Shown one piece after another: positions 1,126 to 6,355 of a stretch of DNA of 22,384 bases (its first letter is position 1; the number at the start of each line of letters is the position of its first letter). Location of the stretch: positions 1 through 22,384 of the IMG/VR virus record IMGVR_UViG_3300027722_000091; one strand, 5' to 3'. The DNA is from a virus. A program made the position numbers and the translations under genes. The notes beneath the pieces are model-generated. The model saw only the letters and a program-made list of their open reading frames with translations. It ran no database searches and was not told where the DNA came from.

Positions 1126-1176
1126 CTGTCCTCCTTTCCGACTCCCCTGAGACCCCATCTGGTTCTCAAGGGACGC

Positions 1177-1209
1177 ACCGAGCCTAACGGCTGTTTATCG
1201 TCGCTCGGT
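1177..1209 (-). other. Stem-loop in the operon A intergenic gap
   Basis: ACCGAGC (1177-1183) pairs with GCTCGGT (1203-1209), and a smaller AGCC/GGCT hairpin (1181-1192) overlaps it. There is no T-run after it on the minus strand, so it is not a typical terminator. It could be an RNA processing or attenuation element. The rest of the 1126-1221 gap shows only the ribosome binding site of the next gene. Confidence 0.3.
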
Positions 1210-1221
1210 CGACGCTATTGA

Positions 1222-1676: not shown

Positions 1677-1943
1677 TTAGAACTTCTGAATGAATCGACC
1701 GGGACGCTGACCTGTTGGAGTCAGTGAATCCGTCTTGAACACGACCCAACCGAAGTTCTGGGTCTCAAACACCTTGAACTGAGAGCCTGCCGCATAGGTG
1801 CCTTCACCTACGTGGGCATCGTTCTCGAGAGTCTGCCACTTGGCATCTTCAAGGCGAATGACCTTCTTGTTCCAGTGCTGCTGGAAGCGGAGATGCTTGG
1901 TAATGAAGTCCCCGAGGCCATAGAACTTGATGGTCGAGGCCAT
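1677..1943 (-). CDS. Hypothetical protein, 88 aa
   Basis: An 88-residue protein starting with ATG in a TAATG overlap with the upstream gene. It is aromatic-rich with alternating hydrophobic residues (QFKVFETQNFGWVVFKTD), suggesting a small beta-barrel or SH3-like fold, and a basic C-terminus (RPGRFIQKF). It has no cysteines. I do not recognise the family. The next gene starts about ten bases after its stop. Confidence 0.6.
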   Translation of the reverse strand: MASTIKFYGLGDFITKHLRFQQHWNKKVIRLEDAKWQTLENDAHVGEGTYAAGSQFKVFETQNFGWVVFKTDSLTPTGQRPGRFIQKF

Positions 1944-2212
1944 TACTTGCCACCCTTCTTCGCGAGGGACTTCTTGTTGTCGTTGTAGAGCTTCACCGCG
2001 ACCAGCGATTCGTGGAGCTGGGCGGCGATGCTGAGGAGTGCGCTCTCACGGTCGAATCCAATTCCAATGAGGAACTCGACGGTGCGGTTGACTGCCTCGG
2101 TTGAGGACTGACGAGCGCTCTTGGAGATGGGATAAGACTTACCCTTCTCGCGTGGTATCTCAACTACTCGATTCTTCTTGCCTACCTTTAACGACGCCTT
2201 AGTCTTTGCCAC
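1943..2212 (-). CDS. Hypothetical basic helical protein, 89 aa
   Basis: An 89-residue protein with a GTG start seven bases after AGGAG. The start overlaps the 3' end of the ribbon-helix-helix gene by 14 bases. Both ends are Lys-rich; the middle (EAVNRTVEFLIGIGFDRESALLSIAAQLHES) looks like two or three amphipathic helices. It lies directly downstream of the ribbon-helix-helix gene in operon A, so a role in DNA transactions is possible, but nothing in the sequence proves it. Confidence 0.6.
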   Translation of the reverse strand: MAKTKASLKVGKKNRVVEIPREKGKSYPISKSARQSSTEAVNRTVEFLIGIGFDRESALLSIAAQLHESLVAVKLYNDNKKSLAKKGGK

Positions 2213-2369
2213 TGCTAGTCTCCTTCTGTATCTGCTCTCTGAACAGATGCTCGATGAACTTGCCTACGCTGAGGCCCTTGGACTTCGCTGTCTTGATGGC
2301 CCAATCCCAGGCCGCCGTATCGTTGACGTTTATCATACGGCGACTGTAGGATGGTCTACCCTCGGCCAT
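2199..2369 (-). CDS. Ribbon-helix-helix DNA-binding protein
   Basis: A 56-residue protein, first gene of operon A. I choose ATG 2369 because GAGGAAGGAAG precedes it; a start 21 bases upstream is less well placed. The layout fits an Arc/CopG/MetJ-type ribbon-helix-helix: a short strand (residues 10-16, RRMINVN), helix A (18-31, TAAWDWAIKTAKSK), a Gly-Leu-Ser turn and helix B (34-47, SVGKFIEHLFREQI). Such proteins dimerise, bind tandem short repeats and often repress their own promoter or act as plasmid partition adaptors. The 11-bp repeat array starts about 50 bases upstream of its promoter, so it is the obvious candidate to bind it. Binding is inferred, not seen. Confidence 0.6.
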   Translation of the reverse strand: MAEGRPSYSRRMINVNDTAAWDWAIKTAKSKGLSVGKFIEHLFREQIQKETSSGKD

Positions 2370-2446
2370 CTTCCTTCCTCTAGGACTCACTCTATCCTTT
2401 CCCCTCCTCCGAGGTTTATGCTGGCCCGTGCCGCGGGCGCAAATAC

Positions 2447-2475
2447 ATTATATGCCAGCCAGTTTTAGATGTCAA
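2447..2475 (-). promoter_or_regulatory. Perfect sigma-70 promoter for operon A
   Basis: On the minus strand TTGACA (2475-2470) is followed by a 17-base spacer and TATAAT (2452-2447), a 12 of 12 match to the consensus. The predicted transcript starts near 2440 and gives a leader of about 70 bases before the ribbon-helix-helix gene, with a short GCCCG/CGGGC hairpin near its 5' end. The left 11-bp repeat array lies about 50 bases upstream. Confidence 0.85.
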
Positions 2476-2525
2476 GCGATTCTGTGGCGCGGTGCTATTT
2501 CGACATGAAAATGGGCTGGATCTGT

Positions 2526-2590
2526 TGGGTATGTGTCTGGTATGTGTCTGGTATGACTCTGGTATGTCCCTGGTATCCCTCTGGTATCTC
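2526..2590 (+). repeat. Left array of 11-bp direct repeats (6 units)
   Basis: The core GGTAT starts at 2528, 2539, 2550, 2561, 2572 and 2583, exactly 11 bases apart. Five of the six units read CTGGTAT; the first reads TTGGGTAT-like. The remaining four bases of each unit vary. The array ends directly at GATCGGC (2591-2597), which is repeated inverted next to the right array. An exact helical-turn period is typical of sites where protein dimers stack side by side on one DNA face. Confidence 0.9.
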
Positions 2591-2598
2591 GATCGGCT

Positions 2599-2610
2599 GT
2601 AAGTTATTGA
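2599..2610 (+). repeat. 12-bp direct repeat, copy 1
   Basis: GTAAGTTATTGA, just inside the left array. An identical copy in the same orientation lies at 2855-2866 just inside the right array. It is AT-rich and does not match the DnaA box TTATCCACA. Confidence 0.75.
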
Positions 2611-2631
2611 CCCGTATGGACTTAGCCGAGA

Positions 2632-2681
2632 CCCCCTCCCCCCGTCCACCATCCAACCCCGGCCTCCCCCCGGTGGCATGT
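2632..2681 (-). other. C-run tract (G-quadruplex potential on minus strand)
   Basis: The plus strand has C-runs at 2632-2643 (split by one T), near 2657-2660 and near 2666-2671. On the minus strand this gives four or more G-runs, with one longer loop. It mirrors the G-run tract at 2830-2847 across the AT-rich centre. Confidence 0.45.
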
Positions 2682-2708
2682 CGTTTGCAGGTGGCCTCTA
2701 CTCCCCTC

Positions 2709-2775
2709 TTATTTTTTTATATTATGATATAGAATAAGATAGAGAGGGAAAAAAACCATATCATGAAAAATTGGG
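2709..2775. other. AT-rich core of the intergenic element
   Basis: About 65 bases almost without C, with runs of T and A (a T7 run near 2712, an A7 run near 2750) and ATATTATGATATAGAATAAG between. In an otherwise GC-rich phage this is a clear outlier and lies at the centre of the inverted arrays (about 2739). It fits a DNA unwinding element of an origin, but no initiator gene is identified in the window. Confidence 0.6.
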
Positions 2776-2829
2776 CCGATACCGACCTCGTTTCGTTGAA
2801 AATCCGGACGGCCTTGCCCCCATATTCGA

Positions 2830-2847
2830 GGGTGGGAGGGAGGGGGG
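2830..2847 (+). other. G-quadruplex motif
   Basis: GGGTGGGAGGGAGGGGGG: four G-runs joined by single-base loops, the type expected to form the most stable parallel quadruplexes. It lies about 90-108 bases right of the centre of the inverted element, opposite the C-run tract on the left. Confidence 0.7.
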
Positions 2848-2854
2848 CTATCCC

Positions 2855-2866
2855 GTAAGTTATTGA
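2855..2866 (+). repeat. 12-bp direct repeat, copy 2
   Basis: GTAAGTTATTGA, identical to 2599-2610 and in the same orientation. It is followed by TAATATTAGAG and then GCCGATC (2881-2887), the inverse of GATCGGC at 2591-2597. Confidence 0.75.
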
Positions 2867-2890
2867 TAATATTAGAGTTGGCCGATCAAA

Positions 2891-2966
2891 AGATACCAGA
2901 GCGATACCAGAGAGATGCCAGAGTGATACCATAGACATACCAGAGGGATACCACAGAGATTCCAGG
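2891..2966 (-). repeat. Right array of 11-bp repeats (7 units, inverted)
   Basis: The core ATACC (complement GGTAT) starts at 2893, 2904, 2915 (ATGCC), 2926, 2937, 2948 and 2959 (ATTCC), exactly 11 bases apart. Most units read GATACCAGAG, the reverse complement of the left units. The seventh unit runs straight into a 17-bp operator-like palindrome at 2967-2983. Confidence 0.9.
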
Positions 2967-2983
2967 TGTCGAGCGGCTGAACA
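2967..2983. promoter_or_regulatory. 17-bp palindromic site, copy 2
   Basis: TGTCGAGCGGCTGAACA, differing at two bases of the left arm from the perfect copy at 794-810. It abuts the last unit of the right 11-bp array. Confidence 0.6.
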
Positions 2984-2998
2984 AATTGTAAGGCTCTG

Positions 2999-3056
2999 TG
3001 ATCAATCTTCAGGAGGGACCGGGCTGACGGGCGCGGTCGCGGCGCTGAATTGATCA
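2999..3056. repeat. Inverted repeat TGATCAAT / ATTGATCA
   Basis: TGATCAAT (2999-3006) is matched by ATTGATCA (3049-3056) with 42 bases between. The bases between are GC-rich and hold no convincing start codon. The role is unknown; it is part of the structured non-coding region between operons A and B. Confidence 0.4.
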
Positions 3057-3152
3057 GGGCGGCGCACAAAATGTTCAGAGGGTATTGTCGGCGCTGCCCA
3101 GAGTCAGGCGCGGCCTCCCGACTCTCAACCGAAGTCGATATCGTAGCACAAT

Positions 3153-3169
3153 TGTTCACGGGCTGAACA
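3153..3169. promoter_or_regulatory. 17-bp palindromic site, copy 3
   Basis: TGTTCACGGGCTGAACA. Both six-base arms match TGTTCA and TGAACA exactly. It lies in the non-coding region, between the right array and the operon B terminator. Confidence 0.65.
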
Positions 3170-3181
3170 TTGGACTGCGGG

Positions 3182-3210
3182 GATTCATAAACCACAATGA
3201 TTCATAAACC
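3182..3210 (+). repeat. Tandem 12-bp repeat GATTCATAAACC
   Basis: Two exact copies of GATTCATAAACC (3182-3193 and 3199-3210), 17 bases apart start to start, just upstream of the terminator. No gene overlaps them. They could be another protein-binding pair. Confidence 0.6.
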
Positions 3211-3229
3211 TCCAGGCGCAGCCTGAACG

Positions 3230-3257
3230 AAAAAAGGCCCCCGATGTTCTGGGGGCC
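3230..3257 (-). terminator. Intrinsic terminator of operon B
   Basis: On the minus strand GGCCCCC (3257-3251) and GGGGGCC (3242-3236) form a perfect 7-bp GC stem with an 8-base loop, followed by six T. It starts nine bases after the stop of the last operon B gene and shields the repeat region from leftward transcription. Confidence 0.85.
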
Positions 3258-3265
3258 AGTCTCGA

Positions 3266-4479: not shown

Positions 4480-4612
4480 GTCGCAGCGGGTCCCATGACC
4501 TCGCTCCGGGGGGTGGTAGCCAACGTAAAGTCAGTCGATGTATTTCAATCGGGTCCTTTAATCGAACGGGTCCCATCTCGTAGATGCCTTTCCGATACGG
4601 GACTCGTTGAAA

Positions 4613-4648
4613 TGTTCACTCGCAGGAACAATGTTCATCGGGCGAACT
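4613..4648. promoter_or_regulatory. Two palindromic sites upstream of the main late promoter
   Basis: TGTTCACTCGCAGGAACA (4613-4630, arms one base further apart than usual) and TGTTCATCGGGCGAACT (4632-4648) lie side by side, ending ten bases before the -35 of the perfect promoter. They belong to the 17-bp family found elsewhere in the window. This is where a regulator of the virion operon would be expected. Confidence 0.6.
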
Positions 4649-4657
4649 TTGGCCGAC

Positions 4658-4686
4658 TTGACAGCGATCGCAGAACGTGGTATAAT
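4658..4686 (+). promoter_or_regulatory. Perfect sigma-70 promoter for the virion operon
   Basis: TTGACA (4658-4663), 17-base spacer, TATAAT (4681-4686), a 12 of 12 match. Transcription should start near 4693, which rules out the in-frame starts further upstream (TTG 4607, ATG 4631) for transcripts from this promoter. Confidence 0.85.
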
Positions 4687-4729
4687 CGGACAAGGCCGAC
4701 GGCCACGTTTAGATATCGTCACCAGAATC

Positions 4730-5437
4730 ATGTGGATTAGCGAAGAAGAGGCCTCGATTCGCATCGGGTCCCATAGCAACATATTGAACCGGATAGACCG
4801 GGACTCCAAGCCCACGGGAGACCCTTCTCCGAGTCCGATTGAGCCTGTCGCACCAGAGCCTCCGTCCATGCTCGACCCAGAGGTCATCAAGCACGTCGAG
4901 AACGCTCTCCGAAAGGCAACTTACAAGCCGAGGCTGACTCCGAAAGAAGCGGCAGACGCTGTTATCGTAGGTCAGCTCACGGGCCGCGCAAACTCTGCGA
5001 AACTCTTTGACGTCAACGAGGACCATATTCGGTTGATGACCGACCACGGTTCTCAGAATCACGGCACGCTCGCACCAAACGTCAATCTCATCCAGCAAAT
5101 CGAGTCTCAGCGAACCAAGATTCGCGACCTCGCTTTCAAGCGTCTGAATACCGTGCTTGAATGTCTGGATGATCAGAAAATCAAGAAGATCGAGAAGGCG
5201 CGCGAGCTGGCCCAGGTCGGCTCTCAGCTTGCAATCATCTCTGAGAAGATGCTCCCGAAGGAGATGAGCGCCGAGCAGACCGTTCACTTCCATATGTATC
5301 GCCCCGAAGTCAAGAAAGAATCCGACTACGAAGCGGTATCCGTGGGAGAGGAACGTGTCCAGCAGAAGTATCTGGAGGGAGCAATTTCTGGAAGTGAAAC
5401 AGCAGACGGTAACGAACAGGAGTCGAAGGATGCGTAA
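4730..5437 (+). CDS. Probable DNA-binding protein, possible small terminase subunit
   Basis: A 235-residue protein if it starts at ATG 4730, the first ATG after the predicted transcription start. No clear ribosome binding site precedes it, so a start further down (TTG 4784 or ATG 4868) is possible. After a Pro-rich segment (about residues 28-45) comes LTPKEAADAVIVGQLTGRAN followed by SAKLFDVNEDHIRLM, which reads as a helix-turn-helix. Then follow long charged helices (RTKIRDLAFKRLNTVLECL; KIEKARELAQVGSQLAIISE) and an acidic tail. A DNA-binding domain, helical oligomerisation region and variable tail at the head of the packaging genes is the layout of small terminases. The large subunit is seven genes downstream, so the call is tentative. 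Confidence 0.4.
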   Translation: MWISEEEASIRIGSHSNILNRIDRDSKPTGDPSPSPIEPVAPEPPSMLDPEVIKHVENALRKATYKPRLTPKEAADAVIVGQLTGRANSAKLFDVNEDHIRLMTDHGSQNHGTLAPNVNLIQQIESQRTKIRDLAFKRLNTVLECLDDQKIKKIEKARELAQVGSQLAIISEKMLPKEMSAEQTVHFHMYRPEVKKESDYEAVSVGEERVQQKYLEGAISGSETADGNEQESKDA

Positions 5438-5848: not shown

Positions 5849-6355
5849 ATGCCGAAGTCCAAGTTCGCACTCATCACCATCCTCGACGGGATTCCGGGCC
5901 AGCGTCCCGACAACAGCTTGCCAGGTCAGGGTGGAGGCTCAGGCAACAGGCCTGACAACACGCTGCCCGGTCAGGGAGGCAGCGGCAACCGTCCGGACCA
6001 GGGTCTCCCCGAGCATCCCGAGGTCTGGCCGCCCGAGAATCCGCCGTCGCCGGACAACTCGCTGCCCGACAACGAGCTGCCTCCTGGGATTCCCGTCCAT
6101 CTGCCGGTGTTCCCGCCCGTCGACCCCGGCTACGGCAAGCCCGAGGGCGGCTCAGGGAATCGCCCCGACAACTCGCTTCCCGGATCGGGCAACCGTCCCG
6201 ACAATTCCCTGCCCGGTCGGGAGCAGAAGTTCGAGCTGAAATACAGCCTGCTCTACGGCTGGGTGCTCGTTCCGTGCGACTCCGACGGCGGTGCGTCAGG
6301 CGCGCGCCCCGACAACACTCTGCCCGGCGGTGGAGCGCAGCCGAAGCGAAAGTAG
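5849..6355 (+). CDS. RPDNSLPG-repeat low-complexity protein
   Basis: A 168-residue protein rich in Pro, Gly, Asn and Asp. It carries about seven copies of an 8-residue motif RPDNSLPG or RPDNTLPG, separated by Gly/Ser/Gln linkers, with a Pro-rich middle (GIPVHLPVFPPVDPGYG). Near the C-terminus a short ordered patch (KFELKYSLLYGWVLVPCDSDG, about 125-145) breaks the repeats. There is no signal peptide or membrane segment. A good ribosome binding site (AGGAGATAGGAA) precedes ATG. Similar PDNSLP repeats occur in uncharacterised phage proteins. It is the first of four low-complexity genes upstream of the large terminase. A virion or assembly role is guessed from position only. Confidence 0.7.
   Translation: MPKSKFALITILDGIPGQRPDNSLPGQGGGSGNRPDNTLPGQGGSGNRPDQGLPEHPEVWPPENPPSPDNSLPDNELPPGIPVHLPVFPPVDPGYGKPEGGSGNRPDNSLPGSGNRPDNSLPGREQKFELKYSLLYGWVLVPCDSDGGASGARPDNTLPGGGAQPKRK

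Follow-up and report, generated by a model that had tools for sequence, protein, structure and literature searches.

The analysed window comprises 22,384 bp of an uncultivated bacterial virus (IMG/VR IMGVR_UViG_3300027722_000091). A gap of ~850 bp between leftward genes (2400-3260) contains two 11-bp-periodic arrays with the unit consensus CTGGTATNTCT, which point at each other over a core of 297 bp. From left to right, the gap consists of a promoter, the left array, a dyad element, a C-tract, the AT-rich core, a G-tract, a second dyad element and the right array, followed by the TGATCAAT/AATTGATCA pair, a TGTTCA-N5-TGAACA palindrome and a terminator. The features are located as follows.

1943-2212, minus strand: gene of an 89-aa protein, in six of six lineages one of the first genes to the left of the arrays
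2199-2369, minus strand: gene of a probable ribbon-helix-helix protein of 56 aa, without conservation at this place
2447-2475, minus strand: sigma-70-type promoter TTGACA-N17-TATAAT of the leftward early operon, 12/12 match, pointing away from the arrays
2526-2591, plus strand: left array, six 11-bp units of consensus CTGGTATNTCT read toward the core, conserved in six lineages
2600-2625, plus strand: left dyad element TAAGTTATTGACCCGTATGGACTTAG, ungapped in six lineages, half-sites mostly still pairing
2630-2645, plus strand: C-rich tract, conserved, forming an inverted pair with the G-rich tract to the right
2706-2755, no strand: AT-rich core, with the lowest stability of any 50-bp stretch in the record and a candidate DNA unwinding element
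2829-2850, plus strand: G-rich tract, inverted-pair partner of the C-rich tract
2856-2881, plus strand: right dyad element TAAGTTATTGATAATATTAGAGTTGG, direct repeat of the left dyad in identical orientation
2889-2965, minus strand: right array of seven 11-bp units, directed toward the left one
2967-2983, no strand: palindrome-like site TGTCGAGCGGCTGAACA, adjoining the right array, two mismatches to TGTTCA-N5-TGAACA
2999-3057, no strand: pair TGATCAAT ... AATTGATCA, enclosing ~42 bp of GC-rich DNA
3153-3169, no strand: perfect palindrome TGTTCA-N5-TGAACA, operator-like
3230-3257, minus strand: intrinsic terminator of the leftward genes to the right

In the left array, six exact GGTAT starts are spaced by 11 bp (2528, 2539, 2550, 2561, 2572 and 2583), and a degenerate seventh unit lies at 2515-2525. 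The right units (2893, 2904, 2915, 2926, 2937, 2948 and 2959) keep an exact 11-bp register, with two of the seven being imperfect (ATGCC at 2915 and ATTCC at 2959). Apart from these two imperfect units, the inverted pair of six and seven units described in the original prediction was re-found in the same register. The sequences GATCGGC (2590-2596) and GCCGATC (2881-2887), which had been described as extending the arrays, are present, but they sit on the inner side and are kept only partly in relatives. The best 66-bp period-11 matches of the 22-kb window are these two arrays (51/66 and 50/66); for 200 dinucleotide-preserving shuffles of the window, the period-11 match had a maximum of 35 and a mean of 30. 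A scan of the window for facing arms gave a score of 59 at the array site and 12 at the next best place. As 11 is not divisible by 3, the arrays are not a coding repeat, and a coding origin was ruled out.

The two dyad elements, with halves TAAGTTATTGA...GGACTTAG, follow the pattern TAAGTYRTTGA-N7-GGACTTA and are directly repeated within the core region. This repeated dyad, the C-tract/G-tract symmetry and the 12/12 promoter are elements that had not been noted before. The promoter hexamers are recognisable by alignment in the other five lineages. Because the promoter is directed outward and a terminator closes the genes on the right, the array gap is expected to be transcribed by neither operon.

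Relatives were sought in IMG/VR with the putative small terminase (276 aa, 4607-5437) and the neighbouring 115-aa protein, which yielded five further lineages. Two of these, G001 (48.2 kb) and G002 (48.5 kb), are apparently complete, with one gene split across both ends in each. Facing arrays were found in syntenic position in all six lineages covering the site (the window, L054, G004, G001, G002 and G006), and they are the only period-11 stretches found in the contigs of these lineages. Every contig spanning the site carries them, while L128, which ends inside the region, shows one. Absence of the arrays from syntenic relatives, named in advance as grounds for rejecting the prediction, was therefore not encountered. 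The TGATCAAT ... AATTGATCA pair was also present in six of six lineages at near-equal spacing. No relevant near-identical DNA was found among phages, and a search of genome contigs for a host or prophage via the large terminase returned none. Other GGTAT arrays (e.g. in L004, L050, L056 and L061) were set aside as unrelated, one-sided repeats.

The units are of two types that differ by one base, CTGGTAT versus CGGGTAT. In the window, L054 and G004, 12 of 14 units carry T at position 2, counting both arrays together; in G001, G002 and G006, 11-12 of 12-13 units carry G there. As this change is concerted across both arrays, their sequences suggest that one trans-acting factor probably reads both. 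No gene with residues splitting like the unit types was seen among the array neighbours, with a weak excess in late structural genes only. The concerted one-base change offers a handle for finding the protein that follows unit type.

In each of the six lineage records, the 50-bp window of lowest stability by nearest-neighbour energies lies in the core (rank 1), a ranking that takes in the two apparently complete 48-kb genomes. Two traits of iteron origins are thus present, namely helically phased short repeats (exact 11-bp period, six plus seven units) and an adjacent, easily melted AT-rich segment. According to a review (PMC5043065), iterons as a rule keep phase with the DNA helix, and DNA opening can be helped by a promoter of suitable orientation. 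We infer that the region is, with fair likelihood, a putative phage replication origin with an unwinding element enclosed by two initiator arrays that face each other. The original prediction had left origin and centromere side by side; the conserved facing arrays, the unstable core, the early-operon context and the recurrence in distant phages described below favour the origin.

The leftward cluster in the complete relatives encodes DUF3987, PolA, AAA_24 and SNF2 proteins. No known initiator family was seen near the arrays, while the early operon of the relatives does contain replication proteins, and any early-operon product is a candidate initiator. A phage-encoded initiator would occupy each array at one 11-bp unit per turn of the helix, forming two oligomers that face each other and put strain on the intervening 50-bp AT-rich core. 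This core would then melt, allowing the DUF3987-type helicase/primase, the family-A polymerase and the SNF2-like helicase of the early operon to load there. The outward early promoter beside the left array could leave negative supercoils in the array region and so aid melting.

Cumulative GC skew in G001 and G002 reaches its minimum near the arrays and its maximum where transcription converges; the turn coincides with divergent transcription 1.7 kb from the arrays, so that replication and gene orientation are confounded in this measure. GC skew at fourfold sites, compared between leftward genes to the left and to the right of the arrays, did not switch consistently, and the purine-skew minimum arises partly from the arrays themselves.

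The arrangement resembles plasmid iteron origins and the phage lambda origin (O protein), where short arrays of initiator sites lie beside an AT-rich unwinding region; in plasmid iteron origins the iterons are also in helical phase and transcription can assist opening (PMC5043065). In those systems, however, the AT-rich region has its array on one side, whereas here two facing arrays of 11-bp units enclose the core; genes resembling O or Rep were not recognised. E. coli oriC is reported to have two arrays of initiator sites in opposite orientation (PMC4285127, citing Rozgaja et al. 2011). Its unwinding element is outside the DnaA box cluster, while the one proposed here is between the arrays, and none of the six close records has a perfect DnaA box, the trait of an oriC-type origin. 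It counts against the origin reading that the unwinding elements of bacteria are described as never being located inside a box cluster (PMC4285127). Herpes simplex oriS is similar in arrangement only, with inverted boxes and an AT-rich spacer destabilised on binding (PMC12543377); it has single boxes, a short spacer and an SF2 helicase dimer instead of 6-7 units and a ~300-bp core, and no homology to the arrays is claimed. A phage origin with this arrangement was not found in the literature.

With a strong promoter downstream of them, the arrays could have been conserved for a regulatory function alone. A phage protein could bind both arrays, loop the ~300-bp core and repress or activate the early leftward promoter. 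The left array begins ~50 bp upstream of the -35 box of the 12/12 promoter, the arrays precede the leftward early genes in six lineages, and operator-like palindromes occur nearby as well as at other promoters and gene junctions. On the other hand, the distance between the arrays varies from 268 to 304 bp across lineages, corresponding to 26.6 to 30.0 turns, and no helical phase is kept. The right array is more than 400 bp from the promoter, and a looping regulator needs neither the least stable DNA of the genome nor C/G tracts and dyads inside the loop. Transcriptional control is for these reasons considered rather unlikely as the explanation of the arrays.

The palindrome TGTTCA-N5-TGAACA is dispersed over the window (794, 2967, 3153, 4632, 9708 and 17717) and throughout G001 and G002. 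At up to two mismatches, 12-14 copies occur per complete genome, with ~2 expected from a simple count. These copies are found at promoters and gene junctions and are operator-like or parS-like. An exact direct repeat GATTCATAAACC with copies 17 bp apart (3182-3210) was also noticed outside the right array, and it occurs in several relatives.

A centromere, i.e. a partition site at which a protein of the ribbon-helix-helix or ParB-like kind would keep an episomal phage genome in dividing cells, was weighed against the neighbouring genes. The parC site of plasmid R1 consists of direct repeats around the par promoter and is bound by ParR (PMC5016525, PMC9426499), which needs 11-bp repeats (PMC9426499). 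In both loci a central segment is flanked by two groups of 11-bp repeats, and a probable ribbon-helix-helix gene is found near the array in the window. In addition, Shea, a distant relative in the 119X group, reportedly persists as an episome (PMC13348215), and a ParB_N domain is encoded in the early operon of relatives. The repeat groups of parC, however, are direct and flank the par promoter, whereas those described here are inverted and 268-304 bp apart, with the promoter outside and no motor gene found. ParA (PF13614) is absent from eight records, including the two apparently complete 48-kb genomes, with 14 of 14 controls positive. ParM (PF06406) likewise had no match in the eight records, in a search that matched no control genome either. 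An integrase was also absent from eight records, two of them being the apparently complete 48-kb genomes.

The 56-residue protein, previously thought to border the array, does exist, but ~155 bp including the promoter separate its gene from the array, and there is no direct border. Its AlphaFold2 model (mean pLDDT 70) gave weak Arc-, MatP- and CopG-like fold matches, all with E > 1, and the modelled fold points to a probable ribbon-helix-helix protein. Its sole clear homologue at this place is in G004, one of five other lineages. As an array binder it was rejected, with no homologue beside the array in L054, G001, G002 and G006; such a gene is accordingly missing there in four of six lineages, which also speaks against a centromere. 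A PDB structure search with the 89-aa protein gave no significant match. ParB_N occurs in the early operon of the relatives only as a fusion to a DNA methyltransferase, again an unfavourable point for a partition system. Taken with the inverted geometry, this makes the centromere improbable.

In G001 the fusion joins ParB_N to an N6/N4 DNA methyltransferase (39670-40965, minus strand, reverse-complement coordinates; early operon), and it possibly reads the dispersed TGTTCA-N5-TGAACA palindromes.

The start of the putative small terminase gene is 1.7 kb rightward of the arrays, and short periodic sites could wrap on a terminase ring, as would suit a packaging (pac) or terminase-binding site. 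Such a function is very improbable: the complete relatives open at differing genes and not at the arrays, residues of the putative small terminase do not follow unit type, and a melted core is unexpected for a packaging site.

The origin reading was further compared with a broader group of more distant phages that have the replication module in common, found via the G001 DUF3987 protein and via the SNF2 helicase. Fourteen genomes were scanned for facing arms, with no repeat sequence as input. In nine of them, including Pseudomonas 119X/PaP2/Shea-like phages, Kuura, Tiera and Mel-JY34, the strongest facing-arm site is in the matching region (in Kuura as a tied top site). Read by eye, these nine sites have facing repeats or arms on both sides of an AT-rich core. 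In six of them this core is at the same time the least stable window; it ranks 3 in 119X and 6 in VS-ABTNL3, while in vir526 the least stable window is ~280 bp from the arm centre. Arm site and least stable window coincided in 4 of 76 unrelated viral contigs, a rough comparison as these controls are shorter than whole genomes. For the remaining five genomes (G010, G011, G012, the partial EBPR podovirus 3 and the Desulfofustis phage), the top facing-arm site was elsewhere.

Short, helically spaced, core-facing repeats were seen in 119X (CAAGGT), in Kuura (GGGCAGT, mostly on one side) and in vir526 (TGCATTT). A strict period-11 scan of the isolates 119X, Tiera, Kuura and others detected none, the looser facing repeats being found via the arm scan only. 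The 119X/PaP2/Shea phages (Fredfastierviridae) share the early module with the group of the window, and in 119X the facing CAAGGT repeats surround an AT-rich core upstream of leftward early genes. Their DUF3987 protein, however, is only ~24% identical, the repeat unit is another one and the spacing is less regular. A mapped origin for these phages was not found in the literature.

If the origin reading is true, a large podovirus group whose replication module is of the PolA/DUF3987 type gains a located candidate origin; no description of replication initiation or of an origin in this group was found in the literature. Tentatively, and with more doubt than confidence, the locus may represent a distinct and widely shared phage origin design, in which a core is enclosed by facing phased arrays that co-diverge with their initiator, and which may double as an episomal (pseudolysogenic) maintenance site. 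Through the cultured relative Shea, reportedly episomal, both origin and maintenance functions would be accessible in the laboratory.

Some further observations concern the surrounding genes. A Pistol ribozyme (RF02679, 42 bits) is located inside the early leftward operon of the window (1148-1214, minus strand) and also occurs in L054, L127, L130, L132, L133 and L134. The G001 protein encoded at 41023-41679 (minus strand, reverse-complement coordinates) ends in a PEP-CTERM-like sorting signal, VPEPATLTMLGMGLVGLAGAARRR, which possibly hints at an exosortase-bearing host. Finally, the window encodes a protein with many RPDN[ST]LPG repeats (5849-6355, plus strand), and similar proteins are found in relatives.
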